Of a stretch of DNA of 64,000 bases, positions 11,324-34,534 are shown in pieces. The DNA lies in assembly GCA_025766275.1 (NCBI GenBank), contig JAFKAC010000032.1:496001-560000 (forward strand), given 5' to 3'. Positions within the stretch are counted from its first letter, which is position 1. Each line of letters starts with the position of its first letter. Both the position numbers and the translations under genes were made by a program. Below the pieces are notes generated by a model that saw only the letters and a program-made list of their open reading frames with translations, did not search any database and was not told where the DNA came from. The stretch comes from Lactarius indigo. Lineage: Eukaryota > Basidiomycota > Agaricomycetes > Russulales > Russulaceae.

Positions 11324-14300
11324 CTATGTTAATATGTGCGTGCATGTTATATCAGTAGTCATAATAAAATCCGCAAATAACTCATTAGACTGTTCTTGAG
11401 AATGTGTAACAAGGTATTGTCGAATCCTTGAGTTAATATTCGCTTCCCGATAGTCTACCTCCGCGTGGGCTAAAGACGATTCTGGCGACATTTTTGAGAG
11501 CTCTAAAAAAGTGGCGTGCTTCAAGATGAGGATAACAGCTTCGACAAAAGTTAAATATAGCCTAAAAATGATGAAGTGAAATACCAAAGATTAAATGATA
11601 ACCGCCAAGACTGGTGGGGGTGAGCTAAAGAGATAAATATCATAAGTTCGGACAAATGACCGTAATAAAAAGAGGACACATTTTGAATGGTCGGAAGTGA
11701 CACAATCAGCTTCACCTAATGAAGTGAGATGTATGTTTTAGTAAACATATGAAGACAACTTACAAGCTGGGGAACGAAAGGTGAACACCATCAGCAGACT
11801 AGAAAGGGGAGCTTGCACGTACAGACTAGTTGGCCAGGGATTAGTACAATCAATGGAGAGTAAAAGACAGACGTATTGAGCAGGCAAAAAATGCAGTAAG
11901 TCAGACAGAAACTAACATCCTGAATAGTCAAGACAGACGTCGTTAGCACGCTTAGAATGGAGTGAAGTATGGCAGCAACTCACAAACTGGAGAGTCGAGA
12001 ACAAGCGGCGTCAGCACACTTGAAATGTGGTGAGCCACAGCAACCACTCACGTTCTGGAGAGTTGAGGACAGACATCGTCAGAAGGGTTGGAACATAGAG
12101 GGCCACAGCAGCCACTCACTCTCTGGTGAGCCGAGGAGAGGTGTCGTCAGCAGGCTTGGAACGTTGCGGGCCACAGCAACCACTCACGTCCTGGAGAGCC
12201 GAGAACAGGTGTCATCAGCATGCTTGAAACACAGCGACCCATGGCAGCCACTCACCACCTGGAGAGCCGAGGGCAGGCATCGTCAGAAGGGTTGAAACAT
12301 AGCGGGCCACAGAAGCCACTTACAGACTGGAGAGTCGAGGACAGGTATCATCAGCATGCTTGAAACACAGCGAGACATGCCAGCCACTCACTCTCTGGAG
12401 AGCCGAGGACAGGCATCGTCAGCATGCTTGAAACACAGCGAGCCATGGCAGCCACTCACACTCTGGAGAGTCAAGGACAGGCGTCGTCAGCATGCTTGAA
12501 ACACAGCGAGCAATGGCAGCCACTCACCAACTGGAGAGCCGAGAACAGGTGTCGTCAGCAGGCTTGGAACGTTGCGGGCCACAGCAACCACTCACTTCCT
12601 GGAGAGCAGAGGACAGGTGTCATCAGCATACTTGAAACACAGCGAGCCATGTCAGCCACTCACTCTCTGGAGAGCCATGGACAGGTGTCGTAAGAAGGGT
12701 TGAAACATAGCGGGACACAGCAGCCACTCACTTCCTGGAGAGCCGAGGTCAGGCATCGTCAGAAGAATTGAAACATAGCGGGCCACAGCAGCCACTCACC
12801 AACTGGAGAGCCGAGGACGAGTATCATCAGCATGTTTGAAACACAGCGAGCCATGGCAGCCACTCACTCTCTGGAGAGCCGAGGGCAGGCATCGTCAGAA
12901 GGGTTGAAACATAGCGGGCCACAGAAGCCACTCACTCTCTGGAGAGCGGAGGACAGGTGACATCAGCATGCTTGAAACACAGCGAGCCATGGCAGCCACT
13001 CACATACTGGAGAGCCATGGACAGGCATCGTCAGAAGGGTTGAAACATAGCGGGCCACAGCAACCACTCACTTCCTGGAGAGCCGAGGACAGGTGTCGTC
13101 AGAAGGGTTGAAACATAGCGAGCCATGGCAGCCACTCACTTCCTGGAGAGCCGTAGATAGGTGACATCAGAAGCGTTGAAACACAGCGAGCCATGGCAGC
13201 CACTCACACTCTGGAGAGCCGATGACAGGCATCGTCAGCATGCTTGGAACGTTGCGGGCCACAGCAACCACTCACTTCCTGGAGAGCCGAGGAGAGGTGT
13301 CATCAGCATGCGTGAAACACAGCGAGCCATGGCAGCCACTCACACTCTGGAGAGCCGATGACAGGCATCGTCAGCATGCTTGGAACGTTGCGGGCCACAG
13401 CAACCACTCACTTCCTGGAGAGCCGAGGAGAGGTGTCATCAGCATGCGTGAAACACAGCGAGCCATGGCAGCCACTCACAGCCTGGAAAGCCGAGGACAG
13501 GCATCGTCAGCAGGCTTGGAACGTTGCAGGCTACAGCAACCACTCACATACTGGAGAGCCGAGGAGAGGTGTCATCAGCATGCTTGAAACACAGCGAGCC
13601 ATGGCAGCCACTCACTTCCTGGAAAGCCGAGGACAGGCATCGTCAGCAGGCTTGGAACGTTGTGGGCCACACCAACCACTCACAGACTGGAGAGCCAAGG
13701 ACAGGTGCCATCAGCATGCTTGAAACATAGCAAGCCATGGCAGCCACTCACCGACTGGAGAGCCGTGGACAGGCATCGTCAGAAGGGTTGAAACATAACA
13801 GGCCACAGCAGCCACTCACTCTCTGGTGAGCCGAGGACAGGTGTCATCACAAGGGTTGAAACACAGCGAGCCATGTCAGCCACTCACCACCTGGAGAGCC
13901 GAGGACAGGCATCGTCAGCAGGCTTGGATTGTTGCGGGCCACAGCAGCCACTCACTCTCTGGAGAGCCGAGGAGAGGTGTCATCAGCATGCTTGAAACAC
14001 AGCGAGCCATGGCAGCCACTCACTTCCTGGAAAGCCGAGGACAGGCATCGTCAGCAGGGTTGGAACGTTGTGGGCCACAGCAACAACTCACAGACTGGAG
14101 AGCCAAGAACAGGTGTCATCAGCATGCTTGAAACACAGCGAGCCATGGCAGCCACTCACCAACTGGAGAGCCGTGGACAGGCATCGTCAGAAGGGTTGAA
14201 ATATAGTGGGCCACAGCAGCCACTCACCTCCTGGAGAGCCGTGGACAGGTGTCATCAGCATGCTTGAAACACAGCGAGCCATGGCAGCCACTCACCAACT

Positions 14301-17300
14301 GGAGAGCCGAGGACAGGTGTCGTCAGCAGGGTTGGAACGTTGTGGGCCACAGCAGCCACTCACTCTCTGGTGAGCCGAGGACAGGTGCCATCAGCATGCG
14401 TGAAACACAGCGAGCCATGTCAGCCACTCACTTGCTGGAGAGCCGATGACAGGCATCGTCAGAAGGGTTGAAACATAGCGGGCCACAGCAGCCACTCACG
14501 TTCTGGAGAATCATGGACAGGTGTCATCAGAAGGGTTGAAACACAGCGAGCCATGGCAGCCACTCACCAACTGGAGAGCCAAGGACAGGCATCGTCAGCA
14601 GGCTTGGAACGTTGCGGGCCACAGCAGCCACTCACATACTGGAGAGCCGAGGACAGGTGTCATCAGAAGGGTTGCAACACAGCGAGCCATGGCAGCCACT
14701 CACTTCCTGGAGAGCCGAGGACAGGCATCGTCAGAAGGGTTGAAACGTAGCAGACCACAGCAGCCACTCACTTTCTGGAGAGCCGTGGACAGGTGTCATC
14801 AGAAGGGTTGAAACACAGCGAGCCATGTCAGCCACTCACCATCTGGAGAGCCGTGGATAGGCATCGTCAGCAGGCTTGGAACGTTGCGGGCCACAGCAAC
14901 CACTCACTTGCTGGAGAGCCGAGGACAGGTGTCACCAGCATGCTTGAAATGCAGCGAGCCATGGAAGTCACTCACTTGCTGGAGAGCCGATGACAGGCAT
15001 CGTCAGAAGGGTTGAAACATAGCGGGCCACAGCAGCCACTCACTCTCTGGAGAATCGTGGACAGGTGTCATCAGAAGGGTTGAAACACAGCGAGCCATGG
15101 CAGCCACTCACCAACTGGAGAGCCAAGGACAGGCATCGTCAGCAGGCTTGGAACGTTGCGGGCCACAGCAGCCACTCACATACTGGAGAGCCGAGGACAG
15201 GTGTCATCAGCATGCGTGAAACACAGCGAGCCATGTCAGCCACTCACTTCCTGGAGAGCCGATGACAGGCATCGTCAGAAGGGTTGAAACATAGCAGGCC
15301 ACAGCAGCCACTCACCTCCTGGAGAGCCGTGGACAGGTGTCATCAGAAGGGTTGAAACACAGCGAGCCATGTCAGCCACTCACCATCTGGAGAGCCGTGG
15401 ATAGGCATCGTCAGCAGGCTTGGAACGTTGCGGGCCACAGCAACCACTCACATACTGGAGAGCCGAGGACAGGTGTCACCAGTATGCTTGAAATGCAGCG
15501 AGCCATGGAAGTCACTCACTTGCTGGAGAGCCGATGACAGGCATCGTCAGAAGGGTTGAAACATAGCGGGCCACAGCAGCCACTCACTTTCTGGAGAGTC
15601 ATGGACAGGTGTCGTCAGAAGAGTTGAAACACAGCGAGCCATGTCAGCCACTCACACTCTGGAGAGCCGAGGACAGGCATCGTCAGCAGGCTTGGAACGT
15701 TGCGGGCCACAACAACCACTCACTCTCTGGTGAGCCGAGGACAGGTGTCATCAGCATGCTTGAAACACAGCGAGCCATGTCAGCCACTCACTTTCTGGAG
15801 AGCCGAGGACAGGCATCGTCAGAAGGGTTGAAACATAGCGGGCCACAGCAGCCACTCACTTTCTGGAGAGCCGTGGACAGGTGTCATCAGAAGGGTTGAA
15901 ACACAGCGCACCATGTCAGCCACTCACCAACTGGAGAGCCGAGGACAAGCATCGTCAGCAGGCTTGGAACGTTGCGGGCCACAGCAGCCACTCACTTCCT
16001 GAAGAGCCGAGGACAGGTGTCATCAGCATGCGTGAAACACAGCGAGCCATGTCAGCCACTCACGTGCTGGAGAGCCGTGGACAGGCATCGTCAGAAGGGT
16101 TGAAAAATAGCGGACCACAGCAGCCACTCACTTCCTGGAGAGCCGTGGACAGGTGTCGTCAGCAGGCTTGGAACGTTGCGGGCCACAGCAACCACTCACT
16201 TTCTGGAGAATCGTGGACAGGTGTCGTCAGAAGGGTTGAAACACAGCGAGCCATGTCAGCCACTCACCATCTGGAGAGCCGAGGACAGGTGTCGTCAGCA
16301 GGGTTGGAACATTGCGGGCCATAGCAACCACTCACTCTCTGGAGAGCCGAGGACAGGTGTCATCAGCATGCGTGAAACACAGCGAGCCATGTCAGCCACT
16401 CACTTCCTGGAGAGCCGTGGACAGGCATCGTCAGAAGGTTTGAAACATAGAGAGCCACAGCAGCCACTCACTTCCTGGAGAGCCGAGGACAGGTGTCGTC
16501 AGAAGGGTTGCAACACAGCGAGCCATGGCAGCCACTCACATACTGGAGAGCCGAGGATGGGTATTGTCAGCAGGCTTGGAACGTTGTGGGCCACAGCAGC
16601 CACTCACTTCCTGGAGAGCCATGGACAGGCATCATCAGAAGGGTTGAAACATAGCGAGCCCTGTCAGCCACTCACTCTCTGGAGAGCCGAGGACAGGCAT
16701 CGTCAGCATGCTTGAAACACAGCGAGCCACAACAGCCACTCACACTCTGGAGAGCAGAGGACACACGTTGTCAATACACTTAAAACGCAGAGCCACGGCA
16801 GCCACTCACGTTCTAGAGAGTCAAGGATAGGAGCTGTCAGTACACTTGAAGTGCAGCGAAGGACGGTAGCCACTCACAAACTGAAGAGTAGATCACCGGC
16901 ATGGTTAGGTCAGTCGATCTGAAAACCGTGAATAAGAGTTAGCACTCACATACTATGAGTGAAGCGGCATCAACCATCATGATCCATGTACCACAATTTA
17001 ACACACCATCAAAACTTACCCAGATGTATGGAAAATGAAGAAGACATTCCTCGACTATAACTTCGCTGCGCTTGTCCCAGCTGGTATTGGAGAGGATACT
17101 GCAATGGTTGCTGTGATCAACGCTCGCTTCGCCCCTTCAACTGGTGCACTCACCGGTCCAACGCTGTTTTAACACTCAGTTTTATATTATCCTTTTGCAC
17201 AGCCAAGAGCATCAGTGCGACAGCGTCATTACTCAAAGCTGCGGCCGTCGTCTCAATAAGCGTATCACAGCGCGTGTTTTGCCTGTGCATTTCTACCGAC

Positions 17301-18141
17301 ACCCATTAGCACATAACTCTGGTATTTTGCCTCTGAACCTACTTTCTAGTCGAACAAACCTAACATCGTCACCTAGGAGACGCAGGTAGTGCTCTTGAAA
17401 TTGTTTGTCTGCCACATCGAGTACGTTGTCATTTGGGCTTCCGAAATCCTCCACATGGATTTCGACATTTCGCAAGAATTGGTCGTATTTTGTAAATACC
17501 GCAATGACGGGGACTGCAAATCATTTTGTTAAATACAGTCACAGATTTCCATAACGTCGTACCACTCCGGTCGGGACAAATGCCCTTGAAAAATTTGAGA
17601 TCGAGTTGTGGACGTTGGTTGTCCATTGGCACGCAGTACCTGAAAGTATGATCGTCAGTTGTCGTAACCGTGAATGCGTGAACCCTTGAGAGTCCAAACC
17701 ATATCGCATGCAATCTGTCTTCCAGTCGCGTTCCTCTACATTTGCGTCGAATGAATTCTTTCAAATCCCAGAGTTCCTCTACGCCTCCAGACTCGATTCC
17801 ACAAGAATCGTGAAATATGTAGCCCTTATGATTGGAGAACGTAAGCTCATCGTCGATGCGGTGCTCGCCTCGCTGGCTCTAAGTTTAGAGGCAACCAAAG
17901 GGAAGTACTATTGGCACTAACATCTATGGACGGGTCGAGTGTAACCTGATTGGAGGTGAGATCAGACCCGCAGATATGTTGTTTGAGCTCGTACCTCCTT
18001 TCCTCGCCGGTAAATAATGGGGCTGTCCGTCGTCTCGCATACTCGTTGCAAGATAGATGTTTTTCCAGCATTCGCCCTTCCTATAATAAGGACTCGGAAC
18101 TTGATATCTGGAATTTGACGAGTGGGTTGTTGGGTGTCCAT
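11324..18141 (-). CDS. P-loop GTPase-family protein with 77 single-codon microexons
   Basis: The predicted gene has 86 exons and 463 residues. 5' exons: 18141-17995, 17945-17922, 17878-17700, 17639-17563, 17513-17339, 17282-17154 and 17098-17020, together 810 nt or exactly 270 codons. They encode an Agaricomycete P-loop GTPase domain: G1 GRANAGKT (21-28), DxxG in HDSCG (81-84), TKYD (150-153), a helical segment (CDTLIETTAAAL), and an end at FPYIW. Then 77 exons of 3 nt (residues 271-347) are separated mostly by 65-bp introns (see the array entry). The 3' exons are probably 11715-11603 and 11561-11324, giving a helical C-terminus (YLTFVEAVILILKH) like the family's C-terminal region. All exon sums keep phase. 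The GTPase identity is firm and the flanking splice sites are strong. The least certain point is the 41-bp intron 11602-11562 (donor GTTATC). The alternatives are skipping of some or all microexons, or removal of the whole array as one 5.3-kb intron. Confidence 0.8.
11764..16952 (-). repeat. 68-bp intron/3-nt-exon tandem array inside the GTPase gene
   Basis: On the minus strand each unit reads CTCTCCAG, NNN, GTGAGTGGCTG, with a CTGAC/CTGAT branch site about 24 nt before the AG. NNN (minus strand) lies at 16952-16950, 16880-16878, 16812-16810 and 16746-16744, then every 68 bp without exception down to 11986-11984 (71 units in perfect register), and finally at 11919-11917, 11825-11823 and 11766-11764. 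I read all 77 triplets. None is a stop codon. Residues: E17, R12, S10, L8, Y7, K5, Q4, M3, N3, F2, V2, D2, H1, A1, and no G, P, C, W, I or T. The first 18 are YFNSREYEERMKEHELKK. The introns are nearly identical between units while the triplet is freely variable. Every unit keeps AG before and GT after the triplet, even where neighbouring bases differ (GTAAGT in the unit at 12324; CTCTCTAG at 16813). Confidence 0.88.
14249..16152. repeat. 272-bp higher-order repeat (4 x 68 bp)
   Basis: Within the 68-bp array, diagnostic variants ('gtgtcatcagaagggttgaa', 'caggcttggaacgttg') recur every fourth unit. The same landmark falls at 14249, 14521, 14793, 15065, 15337, 15609 and 15881, exactly 272 bp apart. 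This is the signature of recent expansion by blocks of four units, meaning four codons on the minus strand. A 136-bp dimer pattern is seen around 13222-13490. Confidence 0.85.
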
Positions 18142-33192: not shown

Positions 33193-34534
33193 ATGCCCAG
33201 AAACATCATCCATTCCGATGTTTCGATGGACCCGGAGAGCGAGTCCGAGGCGCTTTCCATCGCACCCGACGCAGAAGAAGAGCCCGAGCTAGAAGAAGAG
33301 GAGGAAGCTGAGGGAGAAGGCGAGGAGGAAGAAGAGGAAGGAGAAGAGGGAGAAGAGGGCGACGAGGCTGAGGAAGAAGAAGCGGACGATGCTGAGGAGG
33401 AGGGAGAGGACGAGGAAGCCGCCGACGATGGTGACGGCGACGCGGTGCAGGAGGTGCGCAACGTGTCTTTCTCTGACCTCTCTCCCCACTGAAATATTCG
33501 TTCATCTTTCTCTGCTGTCGTGATAGTCGGACCTAGATGAGTTGTCTTCACCGTCGGCGTCCCCTCCGCCAGCGCAGGCCGCACCTTCCCGCACGTCGCG
33601 CCTCAAAATCACGCTCAAGCTCCCCACCCAGAAACCAGCGCGTGTGCGCCGCTCCGCTCACAAAGAGAAAGATCCTGACAGTGCCGTTGAGTCTGAAGAC
33701 GACGACGATCAGCCCCGCGGCGGAGCAAAACGGCCTCTGACCACGCGTCAAGCCGTCCTCGCGAGCGTAGTCGGGTCGTCTCACGTTTCATTAGGTGCGT
33801 TCTCTGTTTAACAAACCAGCACATGGTCTCACCAACGTATCATATGATCGGGGTAGACGAGACTTCGCGCAAGAAAAAGCAATTGAACGAGGCTGAAATC
33901 GCACTCAGACGCGAAGAGACCGCGCGTAAGCGCAAGCACCTCTCCGAGAAAAAGCTAGAAGACGAGAAGGTACGCATATATATATAACCCCTCTGATCCC
34001 CCTCTCTGTTCCTCACGCGCAGTCTACATACAGGCAGAAACAATCAATCGTCTCCTCAAGAAAAAGTCTGGGACACGGAATAGACGGAACGCGCTCGCCA
34101 CCGCAGAGGATCGCACCCCTGCCACGCAAACTGGCAACGGCACGCCGGCAGAGGGCGAGCCCGAGGAAGAAGAGAGCGGCGAGGTTGCAGTGGTGCCAAT
34201 CATTGAGGTTGTCCCGACGTGCTACAGGTGGATATCGACCATACGACCCGCCCCCGATGCGCCGTCAGGCGGAGAAAAGATGACACTATCGTTTTCCGTG
34301 CCCGCGTCTCTGCTACCGACTCCGCACCAGGCGGCAACCGAGGGCGATGGGGACGGCGACGTCAAAATGGACTCGCAGGAGGAGCCTCGAAAACCGCGAG
34401 CGCCAGCGGTTTGCAACGTTGACGGGTGTACGGCCACGAGGAAGTACAGGCTCGTTCGTGATCTGGAACGTGGGGCCTGCGGGATGGGACACCTGCACCT
34501 TCTGGAGACGCAGTCTAGAGCGGTTGCGACCTGA
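33193..34534 (+). CDS. IES2: INO80 chromatin-remodelling complex subunit Ies2/INO80B
   Basis: There are four exons, 33193-33453, 33527-33794, 33857-33969 and 34034-34534, giving 380 residues; all phases agree. The N-terminus is a long Glu/Asp-rich stretch (about 20-85). The PAPA-1-like conserved region spans exons 2-4 (LTTRQAVLASVVG, then RKKKQLNEAEIALRREETAR and a Lys/Arg-rich helix). The C-terminus is a HIT-type zinc finger (CNVDGCTATRKYRL, then GACGMGHL). This domain order is diagnostic for Ies2 (INO80B), which stimulates the INO80 ATPase in the nucleus. A second ATG at codon 12 is an alternative start. Confidence 0.88.

Follow-up and report, generated by a model that had tools for sequence, protein, structure and literature searches.

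Predicted single-codon exons between tandem near-identical introns in a GTPase gene family of Lactarius indigo

INTRODUCTION

The micro-exon genes of flatworms (Schistosoma, Echinococcus, and Hymenolepis) contain consecutive, very short exons with lengths divisible by three; skipping of such exons preserves the reading frame, and the proteins can vary by single residues (PMC7653826, PMC4350168). These genes are seemingly confined to platyhelminths and come with signal peptides (PMC4350168). Their numeric definition calls for at least seven exons, at least half of them micro-exons (shorter than 70 nucleotides [nt] and divisible by 3), with a run of at least four (PMC7653826). The subject of this work is an array of 77 predicted single-codon exons in a P-loop GTPase-like gene of Lactarius indigo, a basidiomycete of the order Russulales. 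The gene lies in a window of 64,000 nt (assembly GCA_025766275.1, contig JAFKAC010000032.1, forward-strand positions 496,001 to 560,000), to which all positions given below for this gene refer.

The predicted model of this gene falls within that numeric definition, as 77 of its 87 exons are 3 nt long and form one run, whereas the platyhelminth origin of micro-exon gene families does not apply to a basidiomycete gene. As in the described flatworm genes, the array exons run consecutively, are divisible by three, and would keep the frame if skipped; unlike them, the Lactarius exons are 3 nt each, form runs of about 28 to 82, lie between tandem copies of one intron, and belong to a fungal P-loop GTPase. 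The introner-like elements of fungi are invasive spliceosomal introns that have been gained in different genes (PMC4457414). The Lactarius introns likewise multiplied within one genome, but the copies belong to a single gene family, where they follow one another in tandem with 3 nt between them. Exons of 3 nt are also found in the lipS gene of the fungus Dactylellina (PMC5639578), which has two of them, in contrast to the array seen in Lactarius. In stwintrons, a splice signal of one intron is broken up by a second intron and no exon separates the two, whereas every unit of the array has its own donor and acceptor, 3 nt apart.

HNWD proteins of Podospora form a family of NLR-like nucleoside triphosphatases (NTPases) in which a region of hypervariable repeats varies from allele to allele. 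Their repeats are protein repeats of dozens of residues, encoded in a continuous exon. Hypervariable repeats in an NTPase family are thus common to both systems, but the Lactarius repeat is mostly intron and yields a single residue.

No description of single-codon exon arrays, or of this Lactarius GTPase family, was found among the matches listed in the open-licence literature. The tandem near-identical introns, the 77-exon run of single codons, and the decoupled codon turnover described below have no counterpart among those matches; micro-exon genes represent what this arrangement works like. Spliced as proposed here, it would exceed in scale any micro-exon gene we know of, and it would be the most extreme exon-intron structure known to us.

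RESULTS

The predicted single-codon exon array

The minus strand contains 77 three-nt segments, each of the form AG-NNN-GT, which extend from 16952-16950 (the first, TAT, encoding Y) to 11766-11764 (the last, CTT, encoding L). The array (11764 to 16952), delineated by the unit pattern, repeat finding, and the chain search described below, consists of 77 predicted exons and 76 introns; a preliminary description of this DNA had already proposed the 77 exons, noting 3-nt remainders between full introns. Most unit introns are 65 nt long; those near the two edges have diverged and measure 56 to 91 nt. Nearly all of them begin with GTGAGT, and most contain CTGAC or CTGAT and end with CTCTCCAG. Tandem Repeats Finder reads the array as a 136-base pair (bp) repeat (2 × 68). 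None of the 77 codons is a stop, again as previously noted, and each of 20,000 column shuffles of these same codons produced at least one (mean, 9.2). We consider it highly probable (about 0.9) that these are 77 in-frame, stop-free single codons between intron-like units, and that the introns are likely removed serially, so that the mRNA would gain a segment of 77 residues. The original reading of one residue per exon fits the frame, the lack of stops, the constant exon length, the splice footprint, the arrays at all 27 family loci, and the proteins of relatives that resemble products of complementary DNA (cDNA), all of which are detailed below.

The same organization recurs in the genome. The pattern GTGAGTN{45,70}AGNNNGTGAGT, which specifies two donors and a 3-nt exon, has 1725 whole-genome matches and only 65 in reversed orientation, so the array is not a product of chance. 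The version with a 4-nt gap gives 39 matches versus 48 reversed, and that with a 6-nt gap gives 56 versus 20; several of the 17 matches among these 56 for which the letters were displayed belong to one dispersed element and not to arrays. A different pattern, GTGAGT-N10-CTGAC, was uninformative (56 places versus 48 reversed), since the true unit spacing is longer.

Exon chains in 27 loci were traced by dynamic programming with generic splice matrices, leaving exon length free at 0 to 15 nt. The search chose a 3-nt exon in 1276 of 1286 internal exons. Six of the ten others are a codon before a nonconsensus donor (GCGAGT in three cases and GTGAAG in three), one is 6 nt long, two lie in weak second arrays (in L023 and its near copy L026; L, C, and P numbers denote loci, contigs, and proteins, respectively), and one is the tetranucleotide GACT in L030. 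The units with GCGAGT, seen in L023, L026, and L027, likely represent GC-AG introns inside arrays. The best chain score per locus is 335 to 954 in the forward direction and at most 168 in the reversed or reverse-complement controls.

For stop and codon counts, only the 3-nt exons of the main chain at each locus were used, and L032, L037, and L040, near copies of L035, L036, and L039, respectively, were dropped; the weak second chains of L023 and L026 are included in the total of 1286 exons and in a set of 1133 codons but not among the 1117 codons counted here. There is no stop among these 1117 codons from 24 arrays, whereas shuffles of columns within arrays predict 129.4 (range, 105 to 153 in 2000 shuffles). 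To lessen the influence of duplication, each distinct codon was also counted once per array, with 0 stops in 328 codons versus 25.5 expected (12 to 40). Together with the constancy of exon length, this constraint on stops sets the arrays apart from noncoding minisatellites, which have no constraint on frame or stops.

Codons that would create cryptic splice sites are scarce. Depletion is seen for NAG, which would form a second acceptor (13 versus 50.1 expected), for NYA, which forms YAG with the next G (36 versus 176.3), and for GTN, which offers a second donor (21 versus 111.3). This depletion accounts for the choice of GAA over GAG (199 versus 11) and of AAA over AAG (32 versus 1). AGN codons are in excess (128 versus 55.3 expected), which the idea of a splice footprint does not predict.

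The array L039 (C1:1971400-1978200, minus strand) is an old one, as is its copy L040. Its introns range from 55 to 88 nt, with a mean identity of 0.70 over 300 sampled pairs, yet 81 of its 82 exons are 3 nt long, splice signals are kept at both intron ends, and CTNAY is present in 76 of 83 introns. It contains no stops, as do only 0.16% of its shuffles. Between the two copies, which lie on contigs C1 and C175, 8 of 5265 intron bases are different but none of 243 codon bases. Read at one residue per exon, L039 gives a cysteine-rich hydrophobic stretch (..FSVLLVCCLCCFCPICIPCCLCNC..), identical in L040, that resembles a segment for membrane insertion or acylation. A genome search found no continuous coding copy of this segment; such an empty answer is not proof of its absence.

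Structure of the window gene

In the hand-built model, positions 18141 to 11324 of the minus strand form one gene with 87 exons, 86 introns, and a coding sequence of 1338 nt for 445 amino acids, close to the roughly 85 introns of the preliminary description and somewhat below the 1.39 kb of coding sequence that it expected. Exon 1 (17995 to 18141) contains the start codon and the P-loop (GRANAGKT), which directly follows the N terminus. Exons 2 (17922 to 17945; 24 nt), 3 (17700 to 17878), and 4 (17563 to 17639) are followed by exon 5 (17343 to 17513), with the region of the TKYD motif, exon 6 (17154 to 17292), and exon 7 (17020 to 17098), which ends with FPYIW in phase 0. These seven exons amount to 272 codons, not the 270 initially counted, and close in phase 0. 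Their product matches the Pfam family MMR_HSR1 with 21.9 bits (E value, 0.0002), which is exactly the cut-off of 21.9, so the previous assignment to the P-loop GTPases stands as a borderline match.

Downstream of the array, three exons continue in frame to a family-like C terminus, as had been claimed. The first (11680 to 11715; VKLIVSLPTIQN) starts in phase 0 and is conserved in paralogues; it is joined as in proteins P0121, P0123, and P0126. The second (11585 to 11624; LTPTSLGGYHLIF) has its joint set by P0121 and P0126, and the last (11324 to 11538; AVILILKHATFLELS...FADFIMTTDI..) ends with the stop codon at 11324. The joints of these exons are in frame and were set by eye from the family C terminus of the three proteins.

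The gene family

The protein encoded by exon 1 of the window gene has 73 matches in the L. indigo genome. The 27 loci consist of the 20 best of these and seven more, some of which were picked for array hits. An array is present at every one of them, including all 20 best GTPase matches. The main chains contain 27 to 82 internal exons each, some of them being truncated where the fetched sequence stops. All 27 arrays sit in GTPase loci, but these were selected for a GTPase or an array match among the matches listed, and arrays may also occur at other sites. At 25 of the 27 loci, an exon that ends with FPxIW (FPYIW, FPHIW, FPRIW, etc.) directly precedes, in phase 0, the intron with which the array begins. 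At 16 loci, the exon directly 3' of the chain has the sequence SLPxIxN or a variant of it, also in phase 0, and in L028 this exon is found two single codons beyond the chain. A separate alignment of the 3' side took in 14 of the 27 loci.

Four pairs of loci on different contigs, L019/L022, L021/L020, L028/L029, and L023/L026, have flanks that are 95.6 to 99.2% alike and probably represent two haplotypes. L036 and L037 lie on one contig (C231) and are therefore duplicate copies rather than haplotypes. L021 (C218:475500-485499), a sister GTPase gene whose array has 60 exons, is located on the same contig as the window gene, about 26 kb away and in the opposite orientation; the likely haplotype partners of both are on C259. 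In L032 (C6:35700-45699), the P-loop exon is at about position 171 and the later GTPase exons are directly before the array, at about 7.6 to 9.9 kb. Its array is about 8 kb away from the P-loop exon, the near copy L035 is compact, and an insertion has probably interrupted the L032 gene copy. L023 (5874 to 6603) and L026 (6635 to 7244, both on the gene strand) carry an additional array 3' of the main one, which is short, weaker, and made up mostly of 3-nt exons.

Proteins of related fungi

Six proteins from contigs of the JGI (1.1 to 1.9 kb) continue without a break at the positions of introns in the L. indigo paralogues. As introns are missing and the contigs are short, they appear to derive from transcripts. 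P0126 and P0123, from JGI contigs of 1.1 to 1.5 kb, read through the position of the array. In P0126, FPYIW is followed by 47 residues, FLREERLESLEFEELDVQMESSEEMSELSLGSLFEELLRSLKSLNHF, and then by TAHIMSLPIIQN; in P0123, FPFIW is followed by about 42 different residues in the same place and then by IMTLHTIQN. The P0126 stretch matches the residue make-up of the microexons in L. indigo arrays, with none of 20,000 random draws as good. Its end, NHF, can be compared with the D-[SHR]-[FLVI] found at the ends of 14 of the 27 L. indigo arrays. In P0069, FPYIW and FFFN precede a stretch that matches the translation of a unit intron (68% over 19 residues). P0114 contains FPHIW and LFEEEGDTFIE followed by VSGCNGLI, which, read by eye, appears to be the start of the unit intron GTGAGTGGCTGC.

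Pieces that match translated unit introns are present in 25 of 126 collected proteins, 23 of which are NCBI models from other Lactarius species. Public models such as P0004, P0005, P0022, P0045, P0067, P0107, and P0122 end in translated unit introns or include them. Arrays are thus probably widespread in the genus Lactarius and misannotated.

Codon turnover and intron uniformity

Within 13 arrays, diversity is 0.46 to 0.76 at exon sites and averages 0.06 to 0.21 in intron interiors; this measure saturates at 0.75, a value that small samples can exceed. Even when two units have nearly the same flanking introns, with at most 2 differences in 130 sites, 52% of their exon sites and 71% of their codons are different, and 79 of the 179 differing codons are changed at all three bases. 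In L021, units 25 to 31 and 33 to 39 look like a recent eight-unit duplication, with differences at 3 of 455 intron bases (0.7%) and 7 of 21 codon bases (33%), including two whole-codon replacements.

Comparison of near-copy loci was restricted to well-aligned units, and misalignment may account for part of the codon difference. In four of the six likely haplotype pairs, codons are 28 to 67% apart and introns are 2 to 5% apart: L019/L022 differ at 62 of 3575 intron bases and 48 of 165 codon bases, L021/L020 at 44 of 2145 and 46 of 99, L028/L029 at 67 of 1430 and 44 of 66, and L023/L026 at 37 of 1300 and 17 of 60. The other two pairs, L035/L032 (11 of 1755 intron and 3 of 81 codon bases) and L039/L040 (values given above), are nearly unchanged, and so are the same-contig copies L036/L037 (3 of 2145 and 0 of 99). 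The GTPase exons of L019 and L022 differ at 13 of 816 sites, and 9 of the 13 changed codons are nonsynonymous. L028 (C270) and L029 (C160), with flanks 95.6 to 98.8% alike, share none of 22 well-aligned codons; the codon set is rich in S, E, L, and Q in L028 versus F, A, G, D, and R in L029.

Codon sets are array-specific (heterogeneity of 148.7 versus 104.5, with a maximum of 111.0 in 2000 permutations), which favours codon copying among units over free mutation. Candidates for a process that replaces codons without their flanks are very short conversion tracts or an intron-only homogenization with ends exactly at the splice sites.

Other repeats in the window

Tandem repeats with periods of 15 to 126 bp, every one a multiple of three, are found at 2140 to 2786; their units are rich in Lys and Asp codons and perhaps encode a repeat protein. 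Short GA-rich repeats of 12 to 24 bp, also with periods that are multiples of three, are located at 33291 to 33418.

DISCUSSION

Weighing the proposed exon array

Several observations weigh against splicing of the arrays into single-codon exons. All six JGI proteins were predicted from contigs that are taken to be transcripts, and only two of the six (P0126 and P0123) read through to the C terminus. The P0123 stretch lacks the microexon make-up (7894 of 20,000 random draws are as good), P0041 passes directly to the first intron with no microexon residue, P0086 enters the unit intron in a different frame after FFG, and the intron tail of P0114 had no match when compared with translated unit introns. 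In L030 (C248:1967500-1977499), the 4-nt exon GACT loses the frame unless it is skipped, which makes this locus either a decaying copy or a case of forced skipping. A 3' exon was not found directly after the chain at nine loci besides L039/L040: L028, as described above, L032, L042, and L043, which run off the fetched stretch, and L029, L030, L031, L034, and L035, which have no match to the pattern. Neither flanking exon of L039/L040 matched the family patterns. Helical periodicity is absent from the encoded segments (z of −0.25 at 100 degrees), and the structure model of P0117, built from 34 sequences, has a mean predicted local distance difference test (pLDDT) score of 60.6, with an uncertain C-terminal fold. 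Finally, the splicing of the window gene's own 77 exons in particular is something that we infer.

Tandem arrays are common in introns, and one alternative is a minisatellite within one large intron (17019-11716) that is removed whole, with noncoding 3-nt remainders. Such an arrangement would agree with P0098 of L. tabidus, a gene model rather than a transcript, which has only TE between FPYIW and QVVSLPAIQK. It would leave unexplained the lack of stops in 1117 codons, the constant 3-nt exons, and the avoidance of cryptic splice sites, as well as the phase 0 of the flanking exons (25 of 27 loci on the 5' side and 16 of 27 on the 3' side) and the 47 residues that cDNA-like P0126 has at exactly this place, which makes it very improbable. 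The array could also act mainly as a brake or switch, in which splicing is slow and partial, retained units give stops, transcripts are mostly truncated or decayed, and the segment itself matters little. Four of the six JGI proteins (P0041, P0069, P0086, and P0114) do end in an apparently retained array or flanking intron. A pure brake, however, needs neither stop-free codons nor 3-nt exons across 27 arrays, nor does it call for the codon identity of L039 and L040 in the face of intron changes or for full read-through in P0126 and P0123, and we regard this explanation as unlikely.

About equally unlikely is an origin from introner-like mobile introns that were inserted singly into a coding stretch, separating codons which had formerly been continuous, with no growth by unit duplication. 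Introner-like elements do occur in fungi (PMC4457414), and the codons, being older than the introns in such a scenario, would be unlinked to them, in line with the 52% of exon sites that differ between near-identical flanks. Against this, block duplication is seen in units 25 to 31 and 33 to 39 of L021, unit numbers differ within likely haplotype pairs (77/75 and 60/48), and insertions are not expected to give strict 3-nt spacing. A 3-bp target-site duplication at each insertion was rejected, because neighbouring codons are no more alike than any pair (0.111 versus 0.112).

Possible mechanism and function of the predicted single-codon exons

There is no room on a 3-nt exon for two simultaneous splice complexes, and introns 3 nt apart can hardly be processed together. 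The pre-mRNA would therefore be spliced intron by intron, probably in the 5'-to-3' direction. The 78 introns that border array codons would be excised successively, and the mature mRNA would carry the segment between the GTPase domain and the C terminus. The partial JGI products, spliced upstream and retained downstream, fit such an order; there are only three of them, and they are biased by the calling of open frames. As skipping of whole units would always keep the frame, errors in length may be harmless or even useful. We read the array as a store of codons in which exchange or replacement proceeds much more rapidly than change in the surrounding introns, and this turnover likely makes the linker hypervariable between alleles and paralogues.

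The predicted product consists of a GTPase, a linker of about 28 to 82 residues in which E, L, R, F, S, and D abound, and a hydrophobic C-terminal part. In our reading, the members of this family are GTPases in which each exon would contribute a single residue to a hypervariable linker. An amphipathic helix or coiled coil in the array segments was rejected, as no periodicity was found at 15 angles (largest z, 1.68); with no helical periodicity, no fold can be claimed for them. The P0117 model gives only generic G-protein matches (TM score of at most 0.52 among the 50 matches listed), and a PDB sequence search returned one match (E value, 0.0063). The hypervariability, the number of genes, and the analogy with other hypervariable NTPase families prompt the guess that these proteins might have a role in recognition, for example, in self/non-self recognition or defence. 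A bolder and rather doubtful extension is that the arrays work as residue-by-residue protein diversifiers, in which every tandem unit would be a cassette with one codon and an intron of its own, codons would be swapped between the units of a genome without touching the introns, and any donor could join any later acceptor.

Implications

If the splicing proposed here is correct, Lactarius genes contain up to dozens of consecutive one-codon exons, 77 of them in the window gene, in a family of dozens of genes. This would challenge the minimum exon length for recognition, provide a natural test bed for the ordered splicing of short introns, and mean that proteins can grow by single residues through unit duplication. 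It would also define a class of genes whose structure is misread in automated annotation. Should the arrays be diversifiers as well, one gene would give rise to a cloud of linker lengths and sequences, all in frame, an ambition like that of immune-receptor diversification. The codon turnover, with 33% of exon bases versus 0.7% of intron bases changed after a duplication, means that the idea of such a novel type of diversity-generating locus can be tested directly.

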